From the IMG/VR virus record IMGVR_UViG_3300025759_011171, positions 1 to 33,749 of that record: DNA of 33,749 nucleotides; one strand, given 5' to 3'. The notes under the pieces were generated by a model. The model did not search any database. It was not told where the DNA came from and was given only the letters and a program-made list of their open reading frames with translations. Origin of the DNA: a virus. The position numbers were made by a program, and so were the translations under genes. Every line of letters begins with the position of its first letter. The stretch's first letter is position 1. This document shows positions 575 to 33,630 of the stretch, piece by piece.

Positions 575-766
575 GTGAGAATCATTTACACTGTTGAATT
601 AAACCACAATGGCTTTTTTGCAAAGTTTAGATGGCGAGACGACTTAAATGCGTGGCGGCACACTGAACGCGAAAGCAGCGAAGGATTTTTTGATATGTTT
701 CCAGACATTCCTCGTGTGATAACTGAACAGCAAATGACATTGATAGCACTAAAGTATTCACAATGA
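575..766 (+). CDS. Hypothetical phage protein, 63 aa, GTG start
   Basis: Starts with GTG at 575, one base after the previous stop, behind a purine-rich GAGGTGGAG at 561-569 that fits a ribosome binding site. The product begins VRIIYTVELNHNG and contains a run of aromatic and acidic residues (EGFFDMFPDIP). It has no membrane segment or known motif. Its stop overlaps the next start in an ATGA arrangement (763-766), which supports both genes and implies translational coupling. Confidence 0.6.
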   Translation: MRIIYTVELNHNGFFAKFRWRDDLNAWRHTERESSEGFFDMFPDIPRVITEQQMTLIALKYSQ

Positions 767-993
767 CCTACAGAGTTGAGATAAACGATTGCTTATCGCA
801 GTTTCATCGTGCTCACGAGGCACTGATTGAGACTTCAAATATTTGCGGTCACTTCTGCGACGACACTGGCGATTGTTATATCGATGTGTTTAGCTGCAAG
901 CCCTATGATAACGCTGAGGTTGTTCGCACAGTTGAGGAATTCTTTGTACCAACTGGTGTACGTATCAATTATTTGACTAGAGATGCAAACTAG
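763..993 (+). CDS. Hypothetical phage protein, 76 aa
   Basis: Coupled by a 4-nt ATGA overlap to the previous gene. It has four Cys residues in its centre (NICGHFCDDTGDCYIDVFSC), a spacing that could suit metal binding but matches no zinc finger I know. No signal peptide. It is the last gene before the promoter and first acceptor copy of the tmRNA locus. Function unknown. Confidence 0.6.
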   Translation: MTYRVEINDCLSQFHRAHEALIETSNICGHFCDDTGDCYIDVFSCKPYDNAEVVRTVEEFFVPTGVRINYLTRDAN

Positions 994-994
994 G

Positions 995-1023
995 TTGACT
1001 TTTCCTAGCATTTGTAGTTAAAT
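995..1023 (+). promoter_or_regulatory. Sigma-70-type promoter, first (duplicate) tmRNA promoter
   Basis: TTGACT (995-1000), 17-nt spacer, TTAAAT (1018-1023). The spacer ends in TTTGTAG, matching the CTGTAG at the same place in the second promoter at 1791-1819, so the two promoters look like copies. It would transcribe the first acceptor-like segment. Confidence 0.55.
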
Positions 1024-1029
1024 AGTACT

Positions 1030-1091
1030 GTAACGTTGAAGCCCAGCAAAAGGCGAACAAGACCCGGGTGCGAATCCCGGCGCCTCCACCA
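1030..1091 (+). ncRNA. Degenerate duplicate of the tmRNA acceptor piece
   Basis: The segment begins near GTAACGTTGAAGC and ends with a T-arm-like hairpin (CCGGG, loop TGCGAAT, CCCGG) followed by GCGCCTCC-A-CCA. It matches the acceptor piece at 1826-1888 in its first 13 bases and in about the last 45, through the downstream TAAACACAT. The middle differs (CAGCAAAAGG here). No 5' coding piece follows; a 48-codon ORF and an HNH gene come next. Its acceptor strand could still pair with the coding piece using one extra G-U pair. It is either a relic left by insertion or a second usable acceptor. It is not a tRNA, because no matching 5' acceptor strand lies about 76 nt upstream. Confidence 0.65.
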
Positions 1092-1109
1092 TAAACACAT
1101 GAGGATATA

Positions 1110-1256
1110 ATGAATTGGGATTGGCATTGGATTAGTTGGTTTAAAGGAACTCCTTTTCAATGGGGCGAATTTAAATTAAATAGTGGAAATCCTTATAAAA
1201 GTTATAGATTTGGGCCATTACTTATTCGTGTGTTTCTGAAAGAGTTGTCAAAATAA
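1110..1256 (+). CDS. Small Trp-rich protein, 48 aa, inside the ssrA insertion
   Basis: ATG at 1110 follows GAGG at 1101-1104 (5 nt spacing), a credible ribosome binding site. The product begins MNWDWHWISWFKGTPFQW, with six Trp in the first 18 residues, and ends basic. Its last 9 nt overlap the convergent HNH gene. I recognise no family. It lies entirely between the two copies of the tmRNA acceptor region, so it appears to belong to the same inserted unit as the endonuclease. It is too short for certainty; the good RBS and clean frame favour a real gene. Confidence 0.45.
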   Translation: MNWDWHWISWFKGTPFQWGEFKLNSGNPYKSYRFGPLLIRVFLKELSK

Positions 1257-1757
1257 GATAGAATAGCCTTTGTGGCTTTTCTTGCGTCCTACACATTGAT
1301 TGTGAAAACTATTATAGTTAAGCCCTTTAGACTCACACCAAGTCTTTAGGGGTTTTACTTTTTCTTGCGTTCCATCTGGATGAACAACTGTAAACTCTTT
1401 ACCCGCAGGATTGTTTATACCTCTTTGATCACGAGTTTTATGAACCTCTTTCATACGTTCGCTTTGCGTTTTAGAAAACCGTTTTGCTGCCTCGGGGTTT
1501 TTAACACGCCAACCTCCGTTAGCATTACTTTTACTACTGCCCTTCTTACCTGCTTCGCTCAACAGCATAGCAACGTGTTCTTCTTTAGTAGCAAGTTTAG
1601 CAAGTCCCTGCCACGCAACATAGTCTTGCCATTGTCCGTGTTCTTCATATAACTTGCGATGTGCTTCTGCGTGTTCTTCAGGCGTTAGTTCTACAAGGTT
1701 GCTCGGATCATCTGTGCCACCCATATGTCTCGGTATAATGTGATGCTTATGTTTCAT
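1248..1757 (-). CDS. HNH homing endonuclease inserted in the tmRNA locus
   Basis: 169 aa from the ATG at 1757-1755. The N-terminal third has the HNH core: HHIIPRHMGGTDDPSNLV then LTPEEHAEAH, matching the phage HNH pattern (paired His, GG-x-D-x-x-x-N, then H-x-x-x-H). The C-terminal region (HPDGTQEKVKPLKTWCESKG, then a Lys-rich GRKKSHKGYS stretch) resembles the NUMOD-type DNA-binding modules of phage homing endonucleases. The frame stays open upstream to 1895, but that part reads through the tmRNA acceptor piece on the opposite strand, so the start at MKHKHH is preferred. It is the only minus-strand gene in the first 27 kb, as expected for a mobile intruder. It probably cuts an ssrA allele that lacks the insertion. 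Confidence 0.85.
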   Translation of the reverse strand: MKHKHHIIPRHMGGTDDPSNLVELTPEEHAEAHRKLYEEHGQWQDYVAWQGLAKLATKEEHVAMLLSEAGKKGSSKSNANGGWRVKNPEAAKRFSKTQSERMKEVHKTRDQRGINNPAGKEFTVVHPDGTQEKVKPLKTWCESKGLNYNSFHNQCVGRKKSHKGYSILF

Positions 1758-1790
1758 ATAAGTATTTATGTCGATACCTAAATAAAAGAC

Positions 1791-1819
1791 TTGACAAGGA
1801 TCGACATCTGTAGTATAAA
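1791..1819 (+). promoter_or_regulatory. Strong sigma-70-type promoter of the tmRNA gene
   Basis: TTGACA (1791-1796), exactly 17 nt, TATAAA (1814-1819). This is among the closest matches to consensus in the window, as expected for a stable RNA gene. Transcription would start around 1826, just upstream of the acceptor piece. It overlaps the upstream side of the divergent HNH gene. Confidence 0.7.
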
Positions 1820-1825
1820 TATACT

Positions 1826-2098
1826 TGTAATGTTGAAGCGATTTGACGACTGAGCTGGACCCGGGTGCGATTCCCGGCACCTCCACCATAAACACATTGC
1901 ACAGTTAGTGTGCTTATGATGGGGGTGATCAGGATCGACAGGCAGGATAGAAGAGTGGAGTTACCGGTAGGCGAGACCGTAAATCAGCAAAAAACAATAA
2001 ATGCTAACGATAATGTAGCATCTGAGGATTTTGCTCTAGCAGCATAATCTCATGGGGTGGGCAACCTACCTAGCAACAGAAATGGTTGCAACTTTCCG
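1826..2098 (+). ncRNA. ssrA: Circularly permuted (two-piece) tmRNA
   Basis: Gene order is acceptor piece (about 1826-1888), intervening segment (1889-1920, with a GCACA/TGTGC hairpin), coding piece (from 1921). The acceptor piece ends in a T-arm-like hairpin (CCGGG, TGCGATT, CCCGG), then CACCTCC-A-CCA. The coding piece opens GGGGGTGATCAGGATCGACA. GGGGGTG pairs fully with CACCTCC, and the third pair is G-U, the known alanine identity signal. The tag frame at 2003-2047 encodes ANDNVASEDFALAA. Permuted tmRNAs are typical of alphaproteobacteria: the precursor is cut into two RNAs that re-pair, rescue stalled ribosomes and tag the product for ClpXP/ClpAP. The T-loop has G where T is usual at its second position, in both copies. 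The 3' end is estimated from hairpins at 2061-2089. Confidence 0.88.
2003..2047 (+). other. tmRNA proteolysis-tag reading frame
   Basis: GCT AAC GAT AAT GTA GCA TCT GAG GAT TTT GCT CTA GCA GCA TAA encodes ANDNVASEDFALAA then stop. The ANDN start and ALAA end match bacterial ssrA tags; the terminal ALAA is the ClpX-recognition part and ANDN resembles the SspB-binding part of known tags. In the mature RNA this lies downstream of the first pseudoknot. Confidence 0.85.
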
Positions 2099-2105
2099 GA
2101 AAAAT

Positions 2106-2600
2106 ATGAAAATTCTAAAAATATTTTTATCTATATTAGACAATGCATCTGATTATATCTTTAAATTTTGCGCTTTAATTTGTTTGCCTATTCTTGTGTT
2201 ATTAATAACACTAGATGTAGCACTCAGGTATGTTTTTCATTCTCCGCTCATTTGGGCTATTGATGCTAATGAACTTATGCTTTGTATTGTAATGTTTGGT
2301 AGTCTGTTATATGTTACAAAAGAAGCAGGCCACATTAGAGTAAATCTCCTATATCGTAAACTCAATAAAAAATTGATAAGAATTGTTAATAGTTTGATAG
2401 CAGTAAGTGGGTTGAGTTTTAGTATTGTGTTAATTGTACAAATTATAAAGGAACTTCCGTTTATTATTGATATAGGCAGGGCAACTGAATTTTTAGAGAT
2501 ACCCTATTGGGTGATGAGTGGAGTAGCTCTAATAGCCGCTGTCGTTCTTAGCTTTTATTTTCTTAAGTATTTCACTATGAGGGATAGGGATAGTGATTAG
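2106..2600 (+). CDS. dctQ: TRAP transporter small membrane subunit (DctQ family)
   Basis: About 164 aa, four predicted membrane segments (roughly residues 15-37, 48-70, 90-112, 130-152). The family signature lies between the first two: ALRYVFHSPLIWAIDANEL, close to the DctQ pattern LRYVFnrPlpWaeEl. In TRAP systems this subunit joins the large permease to form the membrane complex that moves small organic acids or similar solutes with Na+. The start at 2106 gives a normal DctQ N-terminus; upstream in-frame codons read through the tmRNA. There is no strong ribosome binding site, and the gene starts only a few bases past the tmRNA 3' region, so it may be transcribed by read-through from the tmRNA promoter. 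It overlaps dctM by 8 nt. It looks host-derived and AT-rich. Confidence 0.85.
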   Translation: MKILKIFLSILDNASDYIFKFCALICLPILVLLITLDVALRYVFHSPLIWAIDANELMLCIVMFGSLLYVTKEAGHIRVNLLYRKLNKKLIRIVNSLIAVSGLSFSIVLIVQIIKELPFIIDIGRATEFLEIPYWVMSGVALIAAVVLSFYFLKYFTMRDRDSD

Positions 2601-3897
2601 TTTGCTAGCAGTTGGTCTTCTAGTTCTTATGTTAATTTTTATTGGGCTAGGGGTACCAATTGCATGGAGCATGACAATAATTGGCTTCACTGGTTATTGG
2701 ATTTTACAAGGATCTGGTCCTGCACTTACACAAGTTTATCTGCATGCCATGGACAAAAGTTCAGATATATTCTTTGTAAGTCTACCCCTGTTTGTGTTAA
2801 TGGGACAGTTAGTTTATCATAGTAGACTTGCTGAAGATATGTATGATTGTATATACAAATGGTTCGGTAGATTACCTGGCGGTTTGGCTATTACAAGCAC
2901 TATTGGAGCAACTGGTTTTGGTAGTGTTACTGGTTCTAGTGTGGCAAGTATCAGTACATTTACTCCTATGAGTATGCCTGAAATGAAGCGTTATGGCTAT
3001 GATACTGGGTTAGCTACAGCAAGCATTGCTAGTTCTGGTACTCTAGCTATGTTGATTCCTCCTAGTATTATTATGGTAGCCTATGGTATTTGGACTGAGA
3101 CAAGTATAGGTAGTCTGTTTGTTGCTGGTATTATTCCAGGGTTACTTTTAAGTTTCATGTTTTGTGTATACATTTACATGCAGTGTAAACTATACCCACA
3201 CAAAGGACCTGTAGGTCAAAAGTTTAGTATAAAAGAAAAATTTATTAGTCTATATAAACTGTTACCAATACTTTCAATATTTGCAATCGTTATAGGAGGC
3301 ATATATGGAGGTGTTTTTACTTCAACTGAAGCTTCTGGAGTGGGCGTTTTTTGTATAACAGTGTTAAGTGTTGCAATGAGACGACTAAGCCTAGAAAGTT
3401 TTAAAAACGCTTTATATGATTCATGTAAAACCACTGGTATGATATTTGCTATTATTGTGGGTGGATATGTTACAGCAGGATTCTTAAATATTACAGGAAT
3501 TAGTGAACAATTAATTAGTTTCTTTGGAACTGAATCTGTAAACAAATATGTTTTTATTTTACTTTTGGTATTAATGTATCTGTTTTTAGGTGCAATACTT
3601 GATACATGGGCTATGGTAATACTCACTCTTCCATTTGTGTATCCTATTATTCTCAATCTAGGCTTTAGCCCTATTTGGTTTGGTGTGTTCATAGTTATTA
3701 TGATGGAGATTGCAACTATAACTCCGCCAGTTGGTATTATTGCTCTTATGATGCATGACCTAGTGCCAGATGTGCCTCTAAGTAAAATATTTTTAAATTG
3801 TGTCCCTTTTGTTTTAATTGGGTTATTACTAGTTACATTGATTACCATCTTTCCAGAAATAGTTATGTATCTACCCGAATTGCAACAAAAACGATAA
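2593..3897 (+). CDS. dctM: TRAP transporter large permease (DctM family)
   Basis: 434 aa from a GTG at 2593, the usual length for DctM. It has about a dozen hydrophobic helices and family motifs: GVPIAWSM near the start, SSDIFFVSLPLFVLMGQL, the hairpin region TGFGSVTGSSVASISTF, and MLIPPSIIMVAYG. The C-terminal half repeats the pattern with MMEIATITPPVGI. It is the Na+-coupled conducting subunit in the inner membrane. The periplasmic binding protein DctP, needed to deliver substrate, is absent from the window; the next gene encodes a small lipoprotein instead. The phage copy would therefore have to borrow a host or distant DctP, or work in another way. Substrate cannot be told from sequence. 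Full length and apparently intact. Confidence 0.92.
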   Translation: MISLLAVGLLVLMLIFIGLGVPIAWSMTIIGFTGYWILQGSGPALTQVYLHAMDKSSDIFFVSLPLFVLMGQLVYHSRLAEDMYDCIYKWFGRLPGGLAITSTIGATGFGSVTGSSVASISTFTPMSMPEMKRYGYDTGLATASIASSGTLAMLIPPSIIMVAYGIWTETSIGSLFVAGIIPGLLLSFMFCVYIYMQCKLYPHKGPVGQKFSIKEKFISLYKLLPILSIFAIVIGGIYGGVFTSTEASGVGVFCITVLSVAMRRLSLESFKNALYDSCKTTGMIFAIIVGGYVTAGFLNITGISEQLISFFGTESVNKYVFILLLVLMYLFLGAILDTWAMVILTLPFVYPIILNLGFSPIWFGVFIVIMMEIATITPPVGIIALMMHDLVPDVPLSKIFLNCVPFVLIGLLLVTLITIFPEIVMYLPELQQKR

Positions 3898-3923
3898 GTA
3901 CACAATATTAAGGTAGACTAAGA

Positions 3924-22546: not shown

Positions 22547-23245
22547 ATGAGGAGCATAGTAAGAGGAGCGGTACTATTTTTAGCAATGTCTAGTCCAGCA
22601 TTTGCCGACAACTTGATCTATATAGATCAAACAGGCAGTAGCGCAACAATTAATATTAATCAGGACGGTACTGGAAACCGTGTTGGTGCACAAGCAAGTG
22701 ACAGCGTCAGTGATGGCGCTACAACCACTATGGATATCGATCAAGTTGGTACAAGCAACGTCTTGGATTATGACATCTATGGCGACAACGCCAACATTAC
22801 TTCTAACATAACCGGTAACTCATCAGACGTTGATATACAGGTAGGCACTACAGGCGGTAGCAACGGCGGTTCAGATGATGTTAACATTACTATTAACGCA
22901 AGTGGCGGTAACTCAAATACAGTTAACACCAACGTTGGTACATCAGCAACTGGTGTTGATGATGTTGACATTGATGTTGATATCACCGGTGGAAGTAATA
23001 GCGTAACTATTACAGAAAACTCAACAGCAGCTAGTGTGACAGATAAGATCACAGACGTTGATATTACTGGTAGCACTAACACTGTTACAGCAACAAAGAG
23101 TGGTGCTAGTCAACATGACACCACACTTAATATTACAGGCTCAAGTAATACAATGAGTGTTACACAGTCTGGAGCAGAAGCGAGTACTGTAGATGTTACA
23201 ACCAACGGGTCTAGTTCTAGCGTTACTATTACTGTTACAGATTAA
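22547..23245 (+). CDS. Curlin-like repeat protein 1 (CsgA/CsgB-like)
   Basis: 232 aa, signal peptide MRSIVRGAVLFLAMSSPAFA then DNLIYIDQTGSSATININQDG. The mature part has repeated strand-turn units with alternating polar residues (NINQDGTGNR, DIDQVGTSNV, DVDITGSTNTV, LNITGSSNTMSVTQSG), as in curlin repeats N-x-I/V-x-I-x-Q-x-G-x-x-N. Repeats are irregular and richer in Asp/Thr than CsgA. It should be exported by CsgG and form amyloid-like fibres. RBS TAGGAG. The last 53 nt are overprinted by the signal peptide of the FecR gene. Confidence 0.85.
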   Translation: MRSIVRGAVLFLAMSSPAFADNLIYIDQTGSSATININQDGTGNRVGAQASDSVSDGATTTMDIDQVGTSNVLDYDIYGDNANITSNITGNSSDVDIQVGTTGGSNGGSDDVNITINASGGNSNTVNTNVGTSATGVDDVDIDVDITGGSNSVTITENSTAASVTDKITDVDITGSTNTVTATKSGASQHDTTLNITGSSNTMSVTQSGAEASTVDVTTNGSSSSVTITVTD

Positions 23246-24281
23246 TTTTGTAACAGTAGCGCATGCCGCAGTAGGCAAAGTTGAACAGCAGATGGGAACT
23301 GCTGAAGTGCTTCGTAGTGGCGATAAGAAGTCAAGCGAAGTAGGTTTTGGTATTGAAATGCGTGATGACGTTAGAACCGGAAACGGTATTGTAGGAATAG
23401 GATTTGAAGATAAAACTAAAGTTCGTGTTGACAAACATTCAAAATTGGTCATAGATGAATTTGTCTATGATCCAAAAAAGCCTAACGCAAGCAAACTAGG
23501 ACTTAAAATTGCGTTGGGTACTGTCCGATATGCCAGTGGACTTATTGCAAAACAGAACCAACAGTCTGTTAGCATCCGCACTCCCACCGCGTCTATTGGT
23601 GTTAGAGGAACGGCATTCAGTATGACCGTGGACGAGATTGGTCGTTCTCTGGTCATACTGTTGCCAAACCCGGACGGTACAGTAGGTGAAATAGCAGTTA
23701 CAAGTGATGTGGGCACTGTTATTATGAACAAGGCCTTTCAAGCAACACTTGTAACTGCCACCGAAAAATCCCCAGCAAAGCCAGTGATATTGGATTTATC
23801 TGAAGCACAGATTAATAACCTGTTGATTATTCAGCGACCAAAAAAGATTGAAAAAGAATATGAAACAGACGAAGAAAGTAACAATGTACTAGATTTTAAT
23901 GAACTAGACGTTGACTTACTAGCAGTAAATGAATTGGAAGAAGAACAATTAGCATTTACAAGACTGGATTTCAACTTGTTAGATATGGATTTATTAGCAA
24001 ACATTCTAGATATTTTAAACAGAAGATTGTACGAACAGACAGATCGTTTTCCAACCAACCCCATTGTAGCAGGTGTTTATGAAGAAGGCAATACACAAAT
24101 ATTTGGCGGTGAACAGGAAGACTGGGAAATATACAGACAGGTTGATGGACGTGTGGTAAGCATCAAAACACCTAGCACACAGGATACACGTATTACATTG
24201 CGTCAGGCTGGCACGCCTGATCTTATGCTACACACTACGGAGGGCGCGAATGATTCGCAAATTATTATTAATCAAAACTAG
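23193..24281 (+). CDS. FecR-domain periplasmic or surface protein
   Basis: 362 aa. Signal peptide MLQPTGLVLALLLLLQ (residues 1 to about 25), then AVGKVEQQMGTAEVLRSG. FecR domain at about 30-140: VGFGIEMRDDVRTGNGIVG, FEDKTKVRVDKHSKLVIDEF, SVSIRTPTASIGVRGTAF, all typical of FecR. Next comes an Asp/Glu/Leu-rich linker (about 215-285: NELDVDLLAVNELEEEQLAF), and a beta-rich end finishing QIIINQN, which resembles a curlin strand. No membrane anchor, unlike iron-signalling FecR. FecR genes in viral curli clusters have been reported, to my memory. It may nucleate, anchor or chaperone the curlins. Its signal peptide lies within the 3' end of curlin 1, and its own 3' end is overlapped by curlin 2. Confidence 0.85.
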   Translation: MLQPTGLVLALLLLLQINFVTVAHAAVGKVEQQMGTAEVLRSGDKKSSEVGFGIEMRDDVRTGNGIVGIGFEDKTKVRVDKHSKLVIDEFVYDPKKPNASKLGLKIALGTVRYASGLIAKQNQQSVSIRTPTASIGVRGTAFSMTVDEIGRSLVILLPNPDGTVGEIAVTSDVGTVIMNKAFQATLVTATEKSPAKPVILDLSEAQINNLLIIQRPKKIEKEYETDEESNNVLDFNELDVDLLAVNELEEEQLAFTRLDFNLLDMDLLANILDILNRRLYEQTDRFPTNPIVAGVYEEGNTQIFGGEQEDWEIYRQVDGRVVSIKTPSTQDTRITLRQAGTPDLMLHTTEGANDSQIIINQN

Positions 24282-25044
24282 TTTCGTCCTTATGATGAGT
24301 GTAGCATATGCTGATAACCTCATCACTATTGAACAGGTTACCAGCGGTAACTCAAACAGCATTGCTGTCTCTGTAGAGGGTAGTAACAACGAGGTAAACT
24401 TTAGTTTTGGTGGTGCGAGTAATACAGTAGACATTGACCAAAAAGGTGACAATAGTTATGTTGGATACACTTCTCTATGGGGTAGTGGTGCATCATGGGG
24501 TGGTGACTTGGATGGCGACAACAACAATCTAAATGTTACACAGACATGTAATCAATCTCCATGTGGCGGTGATAAGTTTGAGTTTCATATAGTAGGCAAT
24601 TCTAATGATGTTGATTTCTATCAAGGACACAGAGTTGATGCTGACGGAACACTACATAGTATAGATGATTATGAATATGGTGGACATTTTACACGATTAG
24701 ATATTCATGGTTCTAACAATAAGTTTTTGGGAAGTCAACGATCAAATAACTCAGGACACGAACATTCAAACATTACAAATATCTATGGTAGTAATAATGA
24801 TGTTTATACAAGACAGGAAAGTAACCAAGATAAAACACTAAACTTAACCATCAACAATTCTAATAATGATGTTGATATGATACAGAAGGGAAGTGCAACT
24901 CACAGTGCTACAGTTACGATAGGTGGTTCGTATGCAACAACACTATACATGTTGCAACAAGGTAGCACTGCACAATCATATAGTTTGACGCAAGACTGTC
25001 AAACCACAGGCGGTTGTAGTGTAAGTGTTACACAGGGTAACTAA
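24250..25044 (+). CDS. Curlin-like repeat protein 2
   Basis: 264 aa, signal peptide MIRKLLLIKTSFVLMMSVAYA then DNLITIEQVTSGNSNSIAVSV. The mature N-terminus DNLI-x-I-D/E-Q is shared with curlin 1, so the two are paralogues. Repeats: EGSNNEVNFSFGG, VDIDQKGDNSYVG, FHIVGNSNDVDFYQG, TNIYGSNNDVYTRQES. Two Cys pairs (TQTCNQSPCGG, QDCQTTGGCSV) may form disulfides, unusual in curlins. It overlaps the FecR gene by 32 nt. A hairpin terminator follows. Confidence 0.82.
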   Translation: MIRKLLLIKTSFVLMMSVAYADNLITIEQVTSGNSNSIAVSVEGSNNEVNFSFGGASNTVDIDQKGDNSYVGYTSLWGSGASWGGDLDGDNNNLNVTQTCNQSPCGGDKFEFHIVGNSNDVDFYQGHRVDADGTLHSIDDYEYGGHFTRLDIHGSNNKFLGSQRSNNSGHEHSNITNIYGSNNDVYTRQESNQDKTLNLTINNSNNDVDMIQKGSATHSATVTIGGSYATTLYMLQQGSTAQSYSLTQDCQTTGGCSVSVTQGN

Positions 25045-30470: not shown

Positions 30471-30887
30471 ATGACAATGCATCTTATGGGGCCACAGTTT
30501 ACGACAACTAACACTCGTAAACGTAAACCTAAGAACAAAACTAAATCTCAGATTCAAGCAGAGCTGGATCACGAAAAGTTTCTAAAGCGCATGGGTGTAC
30601 ACCCAGAACAGCGCGAACAGAGGGGCCGTAGTTTAACGGTAAAACACCCGCCTTATACGCGGTTAGATGTCTCCAGATTAGAGAGCGATCCCGGTTCGAA
30701 TCCGGGCGGGCCTACCATTCCCTCCGGTGATAACGGCGTTGGTTATCACCCAAGCATGGGTAAGCGTAAGGAAAACGTTTACACAGGCACAGAGATTATG
30801 GGTATTGCTACTATGCACAAGAGCAATGCAGTGCCGATTCGTAACAAGAAGAGTGCTGAAGAAGTTGCAAAGATGAGGCGAGGATAA
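30471..30887 (+). CDS. Small basic phage protein interrupted in frame by a tRNA gene
   Basis: 138 aa reading frame. N-terminal part MTMHLMGPQFTTTNTRKRKP with KSQIQAELDHEKFLKRMGVHP, and C-terminal part KRKENVYTGTEIMGIATMHK, SNAVPIRNKKSAEEVAKMRR. I recall both blocks as one protein of about 100 aa in marine T4-like phages. Residues about 51-83 are the translation of the tRNA at 30622-30717 plus flank. The tRNA has 96 nt, divisible by three, with no stop in this frame, so the protein can be read through. Cutting out the tRNA would destroy the mRNA. Basic character suggests nucleic-acid contact; function unknown. Confidence 0.6.
   Translation: MTMHLMGPQFTTTNTRKRKPKNKTKSQIQAELDHEKFLKRMGVHPEQREQRGRSLTVKHPPYTRLDVSRLESDPGSNPGGPTIPSGDNGVGYHPSMGKRKENVYTGTEIMGIATMHKSNAVPIRNKKSAEEVAKMRRG
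30622..30717 (+). tRNA. tRNA with anticodon TAT (Ile, AUA) and long variable arm
   Basis: Cloverleaf: 5' acceptor GGGGCCG, D-arm GTTT-AACGGTA-AAAC, anticodon arm with loop CTTATAC (T33, TAT, A37), T-arm CCCGG-TTCGAAT-CCGGG, acceptor 3' strand CGGGCCT-A-CCA with encoded CCA. Acceptor has one G-G mismatch (4:69) and a G-U first pair; anticodon stem has four good pairs (CCGC/GCGG). The variable region is about 26 nt with its own hairpin TCTC-CAGATTA-GAGA, as in class II tRNAs (Leu, Ser, Tyr), which do not use a TAT anticodon. Isotype thus uncertain; Ile(UAU) by anticodon. The gene lies in frame inside an ORF. Confidence 0.75.
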
Positions 30888-31336: not shown

Positions 31337-31750
31337 ATGATTAAACACGAACCTCTTTTTGATACTGACAAGGTTTGCGAACACTATACCAAAAAGGATG
31401 GTGTTCCTGTTACCTATGTGTGTACAAGTGCTCTGGGCGATGAGGCACAGGCAATGGATATCTTTTTCAGAGAGACTCCACACCCTGAGTTCGGTAATCG
31501 GTATTTTGGTCTTTACCTTAACGCCATGAGCGGTAATATTATGATTACGAATGCGGATCGGATCGAATCTGTGGAGTTTGGGCTTATCGAAGACGATGCT
31601 GGTGATCTACAGTATAGTGCCCATCGTCATGATTATAAACAATTTAACAACGGAAACATGATTGATGGTGGTCGTGCTTATATCAGATGTGCGGCGAATG
31701 AAGTTAAACACTACGTTGTTCGTAATGGCGAAATGGTTGAGGTTGAATAA
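31337..31750 (+). CDS. Hypothetical phage protein, 137 aa
   Basis: Start at 31337, with GAGGAG 8 nt upstream (ATG 31322 lies in the RBS). MIKHEPLFDTDKVCEHYTKK, IFFRETPHPEFGNRYFGLYL, then AYIRCAANEVKHYVVRNGEM with a VEVE end. Beta-rich; no family known. The C-terminal NGEMVEVE is similar to the end of the next protein (NGKRYKLVEVE), suggesting exchange of 3' ends among these genes. Confidence 0.65.
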   Translation: MIKHEPLFDTDKVCEHYTKKDGVPVTYVCTSALGDEAQAMDIFFRETPHPEFGNRYFGLYLNAMSGNIMITNADRIESVEFGLIEDDAGDLQYSAHRHDYKQFNNGNMIDGGRAYIRCAANEVKHYVVRNGEMVEVE

Positions 31751-32337
31751 TGAACATGACTACTTTCGATTTTGGTAACGGACCCGTCCCTGCCCATAAG
31801 CATCCTAATGGCGGCGGTTGGGTTGCTGATACAGCCACAGTAGCAGATACAGCTTATGTAGGATCTGATGCTAAGGTCTTTGCCAATGCTCAGGTCTTTG
31901 AGAATGCTAAGGTCTATGGCAGTGCTTGGGTCTATGACAATGCTCTGGTCTTTGATAATGCTCGGGTCTATGGTAATGCTCAGGTCTCTGGTAATGCTCG
32001 GGTCTCGGGCAATGCTCATGTCTCTGACCATGCTTGGGTCTATGGCAATGCTCATGTCTCTGACCATGCTTGGGTCTATGGCGATGCTGAGGTCTATGGC
32101 AATGCTCAGGTCGTTTACAATGCTCAGGTCTTTGAGAATGCTCAGGTCTTTGAGAATGCTAAGGTCTATGGCGATGCTCTGGTCTTTGACTATGCTCAGG
32201 TCTTTGCCAATGCTCAGGTCTATGGCAATGCTAGGGTCTCTGGCAATGCTCATGTCTCTGACAATGCTGAGGTAGCAGAGGAAGATGTGTTCATTGAAAT
32301 GAACGGTAAGCGATACAAGCTGGTTGAGGTTGAATAA
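31750..32337 (+). CDS. Left-handed beta-helix (hexapeptide repeat) protein
   Basis: 195 aa, start overlapping the previous stop by 1 nt. N-terminus TTFDFGNGPVPAHKHPNGGG, then about 22 hexapeptide repeats of the form N-A-x-V-x-G/D/E (GNAQVSGNARVSGNAHV). The pattern is that of left-handed parallel beta-helix folds, with Val and Ala in the core. No acyltransferase active-site loop is seen, so it is probably a structural or binding protein. Encoded by 18-bp tandem repeats, so length may vary between strains. Ends with NGKRYKLVEVE. Confidence 0.75.
   Translation: MNMTTFDFGNGPVPAHKHPNGGGWVADTATVADTAYVGSDAKVFANAQVFENAKVYGSAWVYDNALVFDNARVYGNAQVSGNARVSGNAHVSDHAWVYGNAHVSDHAWVYGDAEVYGNAQVVYNAQVFENAQVFENAKVYGDALVFDYAQVFANAQVYGNARVSGNAHVSDNAEVAEEDVFIEMNGKRYKLVEVE
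31867..32273 (+). repeat. 18-bp tandem repeat array
   Basis: Unit close to AATGCTCAGGTCTTTGAG, with variable bases at fixed positions, repeated about 22 times. Each unit encodes one hexapeptide of the beta-helix. The repeats also leave the antisense and another plus-strand frame open; these are by-products. Confidence 0.85.
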
Positions 32338-33152: not shown

Positions 33153-33218
33153 ATGAAATCAATTAAGTATCAAGTCAGGGCTCAAGTCAGGAATACATTG
33201 CAAAATGAAATCAATTAA
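33153..33218 (+). CDS. Shortest copy of the QV-tetrapeptide repeat gene, 21 aa
   Basis: [20 protein letters not shown] ending N. It has the same start (MKS-I/F-K) and end (RNTLQNEI) as the next ORF but only two tetrapeptides. Its last 14 nt overlap the next start. Either a real micro-gene or a collapsed copy. Confidence 0.4.
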   Translation: MKSIKYQVRAQVRNTLQNEIN

Positions 33219-33630
33219 GGATCAAGTCAGGGATCAAGTCGAGGATCAAGTCAGGGATCAAGTCGAGGATCAAGTCAGGGCTCAAGTCAGTGCTCAAGTC
33301 AGGGATCAAGTCTGGGCTCAAGTCTGGTATCAAGTCGAGGATCAAGTCAGGGATCAAGTCTGGGCTCAAGTCGAGGATCAAGTCAGGGCTCAAGTCAGGG
33401 CTCAAGTCAGGTCTCAAGTCGAGGATCAAGTCGAGGATCAAGTCAGGAATACATTGCAAAATGAAATCATTTAAGGATCAAGTCAGGGATCAAGTCTGGG
33501 ATCAAGTCTGGTATCAAGTCAGGGCTCAAGTCAGTGCTCAAGTCAGGGATCAAGTCAGGGATCAAGTCTGGGCTCAAGTCATGGATCAAGTCTGTCGTCC
33601 AGTCAGGGCTCAAGTCTGGGCGCAAGATGG
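33166..33630 (+). repeat. 12-bp tandem repeat array (GATCAAGTCAGG type)
   Basis: Units GATCAAGTCAGG, GCTCAAGTCAGG, GATCAAGTCGAG and GATCAAGTCTGG alternate across three ORFs, with two copies of a junction segment AGGAATACATTGCAAAATG. The repeats leave several other frames open by chance. Confidence 0.85.
33205..33474 (+). CDS. QV-tetrapeptide repeat protein, 89 aa
   Basis: MKSIK, then 19 tetrapeptides of the form D/A-Q-V-R/E/W, ending RNTLQNEII. Every fourth residue is Val preceded by Gln, so it may make a long amphipathic helix or a coiled structure. Encoded by 12-bp tandem repeats. The 14-nt overlap with the next ORF is identical in form to that with the previous ORF. Function unknown. Confidence 0.55.

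Follow-up and report, generated by a model that had tools for sequence, protein, structure and literature searches.

The promoter and acceptor duplication described here is best explained by a homing element that specialises in the permuted gene (ssrA) for tmRNA, a ribosome-rescue RNA, in aquatic phages and carries a replacement 5' part that would prevent disruption of the gene it enters. We found it in the window, the whole 33,749-bp stretch that was analysed, which is an IMG/VR virus record from an aquatic virus of bacteria. From sequence comparison, we give this reading a probability of roughly three in four. The HNH protein would cut element-free ssrA near the junction of the acceptor 5' strand and the D-arm, and repair of the break off a donor would install the HNH gene along with an entire new front, comprising a promoter and T-arm, the acceptor 3' strand including CCA, an intervening segment and a 5' acceptor strand to match. 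This front would be joined to the recipient's own coding piece, yielding a complete hybrid two-piece tmRNA gene that is presumably expressed and functional, while the old promoter and acceptor would stay upstream as a relic. In relatives the same would happen at other points of the gene, mostly the T-loop, or the HNH gene would sit harmlessly inside the intervening segment and be removed by processing.

The occupied locus and its empty relatives

An earlier note, made from the letters of the window, had described a promoter and acceptor duplicated around an HNH gene on the minus strand, with a 48-codon Trp-rich ORF also between the copies, and this layout was confirmed. The direct repeat (1061-1100 and 1858-1897) is 95% identical over 40 nt, and each copy is preceded by a TTGAC -35 box (TTGACT at 995-1000, TTGACA at 1791-1796) with a -10-like box. 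Over 85 nt, the two fronts are 80% identical to each other. ARAGORN and Rfam identify a single complete permuted tmRNA at about 1796-2138, which employs acceptor 2; its two-piece form is indicated by the RF04321 score (120.8 bits against a gathering threshold of 47), paired acceptor strands and the tag frame ANDNVASEDFALAA. The locus contains the following features.

763-993, plus strand: upstream S-adenosylmethionine decarboxylase-like gene (Pfam AdoMet_dc, E 2.6e-8), common to empty-site relatives; L125 is 97.8% identical over 822-1239
995-1025, plus strand: relic promoter 1 (TTGACT ... TTAAAT); TTGACA in the empty relatives
1061-1091, plus strand: relic acceptor 1, T-arm and acceptor 3' strand CGCCTCC plus ACCA, from the repeat and the comparison with empty relatives
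1110-1256, plus strand: Trp-rich ORF of 48 aa within the former intervening segment; present in the empty relatives and outside the element
1228-1239, plus strand: left junction at the 3' end of the former intervening segment (GTGTGTTTCTGA), whose final bases are common to the empty relatives
1240-1247, plus strand: AAGAGTTG, at the position of the acceptor 5' strand GGGGGGCG of the empty relatives; pairing with acceptor 1 lost; element-derived
1240-1953, plus strand: entire inserted or converted block, 714 nt for 38 nt of the empty allele, by comparison with L125
1248-1757, minus strand: HNH homing endonuclease gene, 169 aa, by Pfam and PHROG; under purifying selection
1768-1779, minus strand: HNH leader arm AGGTATCGACAT, followed on the HNH strand by ATAAATA; with a second arm it forms an inverted repeat enclosing the tmRNA -35
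1791-1821, plus strand: replacement promoter 2 (TTGACA, second arm AAGGATCGACAT, TATAAATA), by sequence comparison
1858-1888, plus strand: replacement T-arm and acceptor 2 (CACCTCC plus ACCA), by ARAGORN and Rfam
1889-1920, plus strand: replacement intervening segment, predicted to be processed out (Rfam)
1921-1927, plus strand: replacement acceptor 5' strand GGGGGTG, pairing with CACCTCC; G3-U70 retained
1928-1953, plus strand: D-arm and next bases, donor version, by comparison with other phages
1954-2090, plus strand: original tmRNA coding piece with the tag ANDNVASEDFALAA, 137 nt identical to the empty L125

Empty-site relatives, which the earlier note had wanted aligned, were gathered by a pattern scan of IMG/VR; they share the acceptor and the Trp-rich ORF with the window and lack both an HNH gene and a second acceptor. 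Ten relatives were in the empty state, with one promoter, one acceptor (two would have spoken against a rebuilt front), the Trp-rich ORF in the intervening segment and then the coding piece. Four of them (L125, L126, L127 and L129) are 97.6-97.8% identical to window 822-1239, with the tmRNA coding piece following at once; another four (L016, L111, L123 and L130) match from window 1015 before the coding piece, and two more distant ones (L005 and L006) share the layout. Occupied and empty alleles are both found among close relatives, as expected of a homing endonuclease.

Base-by-base comparison with the closest empty relative, L125, defines the block. The match stops at 1239, its final 211 nt being perfect, and restarts at 1954, from which 137 nt (to 2090) are again perfect. 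In between, 38 nt of L125 (GGGGGGCGAACTAGGTATCGATTGGCGTTGTATAGCGA, covering acceptor 5' strand and D-arm) are exchanged for 714 nt holding the antisense HNH gene and a complete foreign tmRNA front, which runs from promoter and T-arm through acceptor and intervening segment to the matching 5' strand. The insertion point in the window, as read from this alignment, is the boundary between acceptor 5' strand and D-arm; the earlier note had placed it inside the intervening segment, a position we rejected because the left joint falls at the acceptor 5' strand. That joint may itself mark homology in the 3' end of the intervening segment, not the break point. Decay does not account for AAGAGTTG, because the adjoining 211 nt on the left are unaltered, so these bases were brought by the element. 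The relic promoter region carries two substitutions, one of which turned TTGACA into TTGACT. The tmRNA gene is complete after the insertion, and acceptor 1 is a relic.

The replacement front is foreign. Front 1 shares 97.6% identity with L125 but just 80% with front 2, to which L128 and L059 are nearer. Additionally, window 1898-1953 matches other phages (L128, L072, L042 and L015) better than it matches the empty relatives. Each set pairs within itself: in the empty relatives CGCCTCC fits GGGGGCG, and in the new copy CACCTCC fits GGGGGTG. The element therefore carries the whole front as a unit: its promoter and T-arm, the two matching acceptor strands (3' and 5') and the intervening segment between them. 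The suggestion that an element had rebuilt the promoter and acceptor half is supported by the single-acceptor relatives and by independent cases (below), and falls short in extent, since the element additionally supplied an intervening segment and the 5' strand that pairs with its acceptor. The window holds both a foreign replacement part and a retained native relic, as endonuclease ORFs that replace gene ends do.

The Trp-rich ORF had been counted as part of the insertion, a role incompatible with its presence in 10 of 10 empty relatives; it is ancestral. Its end codons (KELSK) are supplied by the element and read RGAN in the empty relatives, and its dN/dS is 0.05/0.36 against L005 and 0.05/0.29 against L006. 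The repeat copies do not diverge exactly at the start of the intervening segment, as had been thought: they part about 10 nt into it, and ATAAACACAT after CCA is kept in many unrelated phage tmRNAs. A protein gene often occupies the intervening segment of phage permuted tmRNAs, beginning just past CCA and stopping near the acceptor 5' strand (L494, L476, L447, L436, L020, L455 and others); that of L494 encodes an IscU/NifU-like protein (PF01592, E 5e-40). Intervening segments exceed 120 nt in 46 of 195 cases, most of them with an ORF.

TRAP transporter genes (DctQ, PF04290, and a DctM-like ORF) follow right after the tmRNA at window 2100-3900. Empty relatives have about 150 nt between the tmRNA and the gene corresponding to window 4005, so this block seems to be another insertion, at the opposite end of ssrA. 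Elsewhere, the window contains a tRNA annotated as Ile (TAT) whose variable region has about 23 additional bases (30622-30717), Asn-rich repeat proteins that are curli-like in appearance (22547-25044) and highly repetitive proteins with NA.V and DQVRDQV repeats (31750-32337 and 33205-33474). Two-piece tmRNA is known in phages, for example phage Melnitz, and Melnitz phages carry curli genes and two-piece tmRNA together (PMC9004378).

One HNH clade at several points of the tmRNA gene

The window HNH protein matches Pfam HNH (PF01844, 24.0 bits against a cut-off of 21.4) and PHROG 655 'homing endonuclease' (E 1.7e-18). A profile match (E 0.0038) links it to the I-HmuI type (PDB 1u3e), with which it shares an HNH plus a C-terminal DNA-binding region; unlike I-HmuI, it is not intron-encoded. 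The HNH motif residues are invariant and the gene is under purifying selection (dN/dS 0.13/0.83 and 0.18/0.87, about 0.16-0.21).

In a tree of 96 HNH proteins, gathered in repeated scans, every tmRNA-linked protein falls in one clade of 44. Linkage was found for 38 of these 44 (36 labelled in the tree plus L225 and L328, identified by eye), as against an acceptor within 1 kb of the HNH gene in 0 of the 52 proteins outside the clade; an HNH gene placed elsewhere in relatives, which would have weakened the earlier proposal, is not the pattern of this clade. Clade members are related, and the 38 linked members are not 38 independent events. Several separate insertions are nonetheless required, because the HNH gene occurs in either orientation, relics end at three different points and the flanks differ. 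All loci showing the configuration are metagenomic: among cultured phages, HNH relatives at the three cyanophage loci examined had no acceptor nearby and we found no isolate with the configuration. A genome scan for a bacterial source returned six loci with partial matches only, the best being 75% over 53 aa in a MAG.

A relic with a replacement front recurs at two loci like the window, at one where the relic ends in the acceptor and at thirteen where it ends in the T-loop. In the first two (L132 and L133, 75% and 72% identical), a relic front through GGGGCTG is followed by T(C/T)AAAATAA, the HNH gene, a second promoter and a second acceptor; in L135, the relic stops in the acceptor 3' strand. 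The T-loop cases, located by profile searches with 98 acceptor fronts, have the HNH gene antisense in L137, L140, L141, L142, L144, L145, L147 and L216 (in most, GGACGCGGGTTCGA(C/T) then TAAGCCTG) and sense in L167, L324, L326 and L331 (e.g. GGACGGCGGTTCGAC then AGGCATAAATA); L328, recognised by eye, is a further case. Across several lineages, and whichever way the HNH gene is oriented, T-loop relics are cut at one position; they lack the acceptor strand and CCA. Uninterrupted T-loop targets are present in 97 stretches, the putative target of an L141- or L145-type HNH protein being GTGTTCTGGACGCGGGTTCGACTCCCGC. L413, L424, L462 and L444 are colinear empty counterparts of L140, L145, L147 and L324, respectively, and the L145 relic is identical to L424 over 67 nt. 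In L134, L136, L138 and L139 no relic was visible, and at four T-loop loci (L141, L145, L147 and L216) the complete front lies 0.6-2.5 kb away from the HNH gene. Target recognition is not simple, because T-loop and D-arm insertion points differ inside one clade.

Two further observations were made at these loci. A short hairpin is inserted after CTGTA in the replacement front of L140, L223 and L325, and could possibly protect that front against the endonuclease. L331 has an antisense-type HNH tail beside its T-loop relic and a second, sense HNH gene at one tmRNA, which suggests successive invasions.

Nearly all antisense-type loci carry an inverted repeat around TTGACA, formed by the HNH leader and the tmRNA promoter (window 1768-1808). 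Its arms vary together by lineage: one group has AGGATCGAC, the other GGTTTCGAC, and these are the commonest phage tmRNA D-arm cores. The leader arm of the window alone reads AGGTATCGA, which occurs as a D-arm core in only 8 of 202 loci, all of them empty relatives of the window lineage. In five loci with a readable D-arm (L134, L135, L136, L138 and L139), leader arm and D-arm do not match. That the HNH leader mimics the target, as an operator resembling the homing site would in an I-TevI-like autorepressing endonuclease, is a lead from these comparisons, not proof.

In other members, the HNH gene lies in sense orientation within the intervening segment (L150, L153, L158, L170-174, L175-177, L179/180/182 and L192), and the Rfam permuted model spans the HNH gene in L150 and L170. 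Five intervening-segment loci have a leader with TATAAATA in the loop of a predicted hairpin that extends to the ribosome-binding site (z -3.0 to -5.2); transcripts begun at the TATAAATA box are predicted not to form it. A late promoter inside a ribosome-site hairpin follows the same logic as in I-TevI (PMC2988022).

Beyond the window, we lean towards a broader view in which one endonuclease clade has settled in the permuted tmRNA of aquatic phages and lives there intron-free by two routes. One would be a replacement promoter-plus-front half, with the HNH gene antisense or sense, at the T-loop or at the junction of acceptor and D-arm. The other would be residence in the intervening segment, with tRNA-type processing replacing splicing and the late promoter in the ribosome-site hairpin silencing the HNH gene in the tmRNA precursor.

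Alternative explanations

Free recombination among T4-like phages, with the conserved blocks of tmRNA fronts as possible crossover sites, might have swapped the front and left the HNH gene a passenger, not a driver. We consider this unlikely, as recombination of that kind does not sit well with tmRNA linkage in a single HNH clade (38/44, against 0/52 within 1 kb outside it), with relics ending at one T-loop position in several lineages and both HNH orientations, or with purifying selection on the HNH gene. A tandem duplication of the acceptor within one genome, with the HNH gene inserted between the copies later, would explain why the fronts are close together and in direct orientation. The front identities given above rule it out as far as we can judge, front 1 resembling the empty allele and front 2 being nearer to L128 and L059, and a duplication does not predict that relics in relatives are cut at one T-loop base; its probability is very small.

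The inverted repeat around TTGACA, with arms varying together by lineage in nearly all antisense-type loci, could instead be the operator of an HNH protein domesticated as a regulator of tmRNA transcription. Such a role is hard to reconcile with the invariant HNH motif residues, with empty phages that retain tmRNA without the HNH gene and with relics that imply mobility; autoregulation is also compatible with homing, since I-TevI does both (PMC2988022). We regard domestication as quite improbable. Hardly credible at all is the idea that the two acceptors are both produced and serve as alternative halves of the two-piece tmRNA: the T-arm of acceptor 1 is intact and this acceptor could pair with GGGGGTG via one extra wobble, yet the -35 of the window relic is altered and the relics of the T-loop relatives have neither acceptor strand nor CCA.

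Relation to known elements and significance

Integrative elements in tRNA and tmRNA genes restore the gene they enter through a carried replacement part; they are integrase-based and usually replace the 3' end. The window element also restores its gene, but no integrase is found in its 714-nt block, where the HNH gene is the sole long reading frame with a family match. The homing endonuclease genes on record in tmRNA genes are LAGLIDADG genes in T-loop group I introns, and the intron form of tmRNA is treated as distinct from the permuted form (PMC11915505). The window element shares with these introns the tmRNA target, and most of its relatives also use the T-loop; unlike the self-splicing introns, it has neither intron nor splicing, and no group I intron matched at Rfam gathering thresholds in the window and 12 related loci. 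As a free-standing endonuclease gene in a phage genome, it resembles the seg and mob genes of T4, which are described as intergenic and some of which carry promoters for the displaced downstream gene (PMC2988022). For the T4 free-standing homing endonucleases, we found no description of a relic with a regenerated RNA-gene half.

The nearest precedent is the fungal mitochondrial endonuclease ORFs with replacement 3' ends. These arrive with a substitute for the gene end they displace, and the native end persists as a relic, in Allomyces atp6 and in Glomus atp6, atp9, cox2 and nad3 (PMC3630166). As in those genes, the endonuclease ORF of the window supplies a foreign version of the part it displaces, the gene remains whole and the native relic is nearer to relatives than the new part is. 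The fungal ORFs are of LAGLIDADG or GIY-YIG type and replace the 3' end of protein genes, whereas the window has an HNH gene, a phage structured RNA gene and a 5' part with promoter; we see a similar working and do not class the element as a member. The earlier note knew of no homing element with this target logic, which our literature search bears out for tmRNA and for phages (the combination of HNH gene, relic and regenerated tmRNA front was not found described in open-licence papers), but not beyond them, as the fungal ORFs act similarly.

Gene-end-replacing homing, known in fungal mitochondria, would thereby reach phages and a structured RNA gene, and would take in a 5' end together with its promoter. 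The finding suggests that the permuted gene form favours mobile genes, in that processing discards the intervening segment in any case and the front half forms a unit of its own. It would also offer a mechanism for mosaic phage tmRNAs, and such replacements would mislead phylogenies based on phage ssrA.
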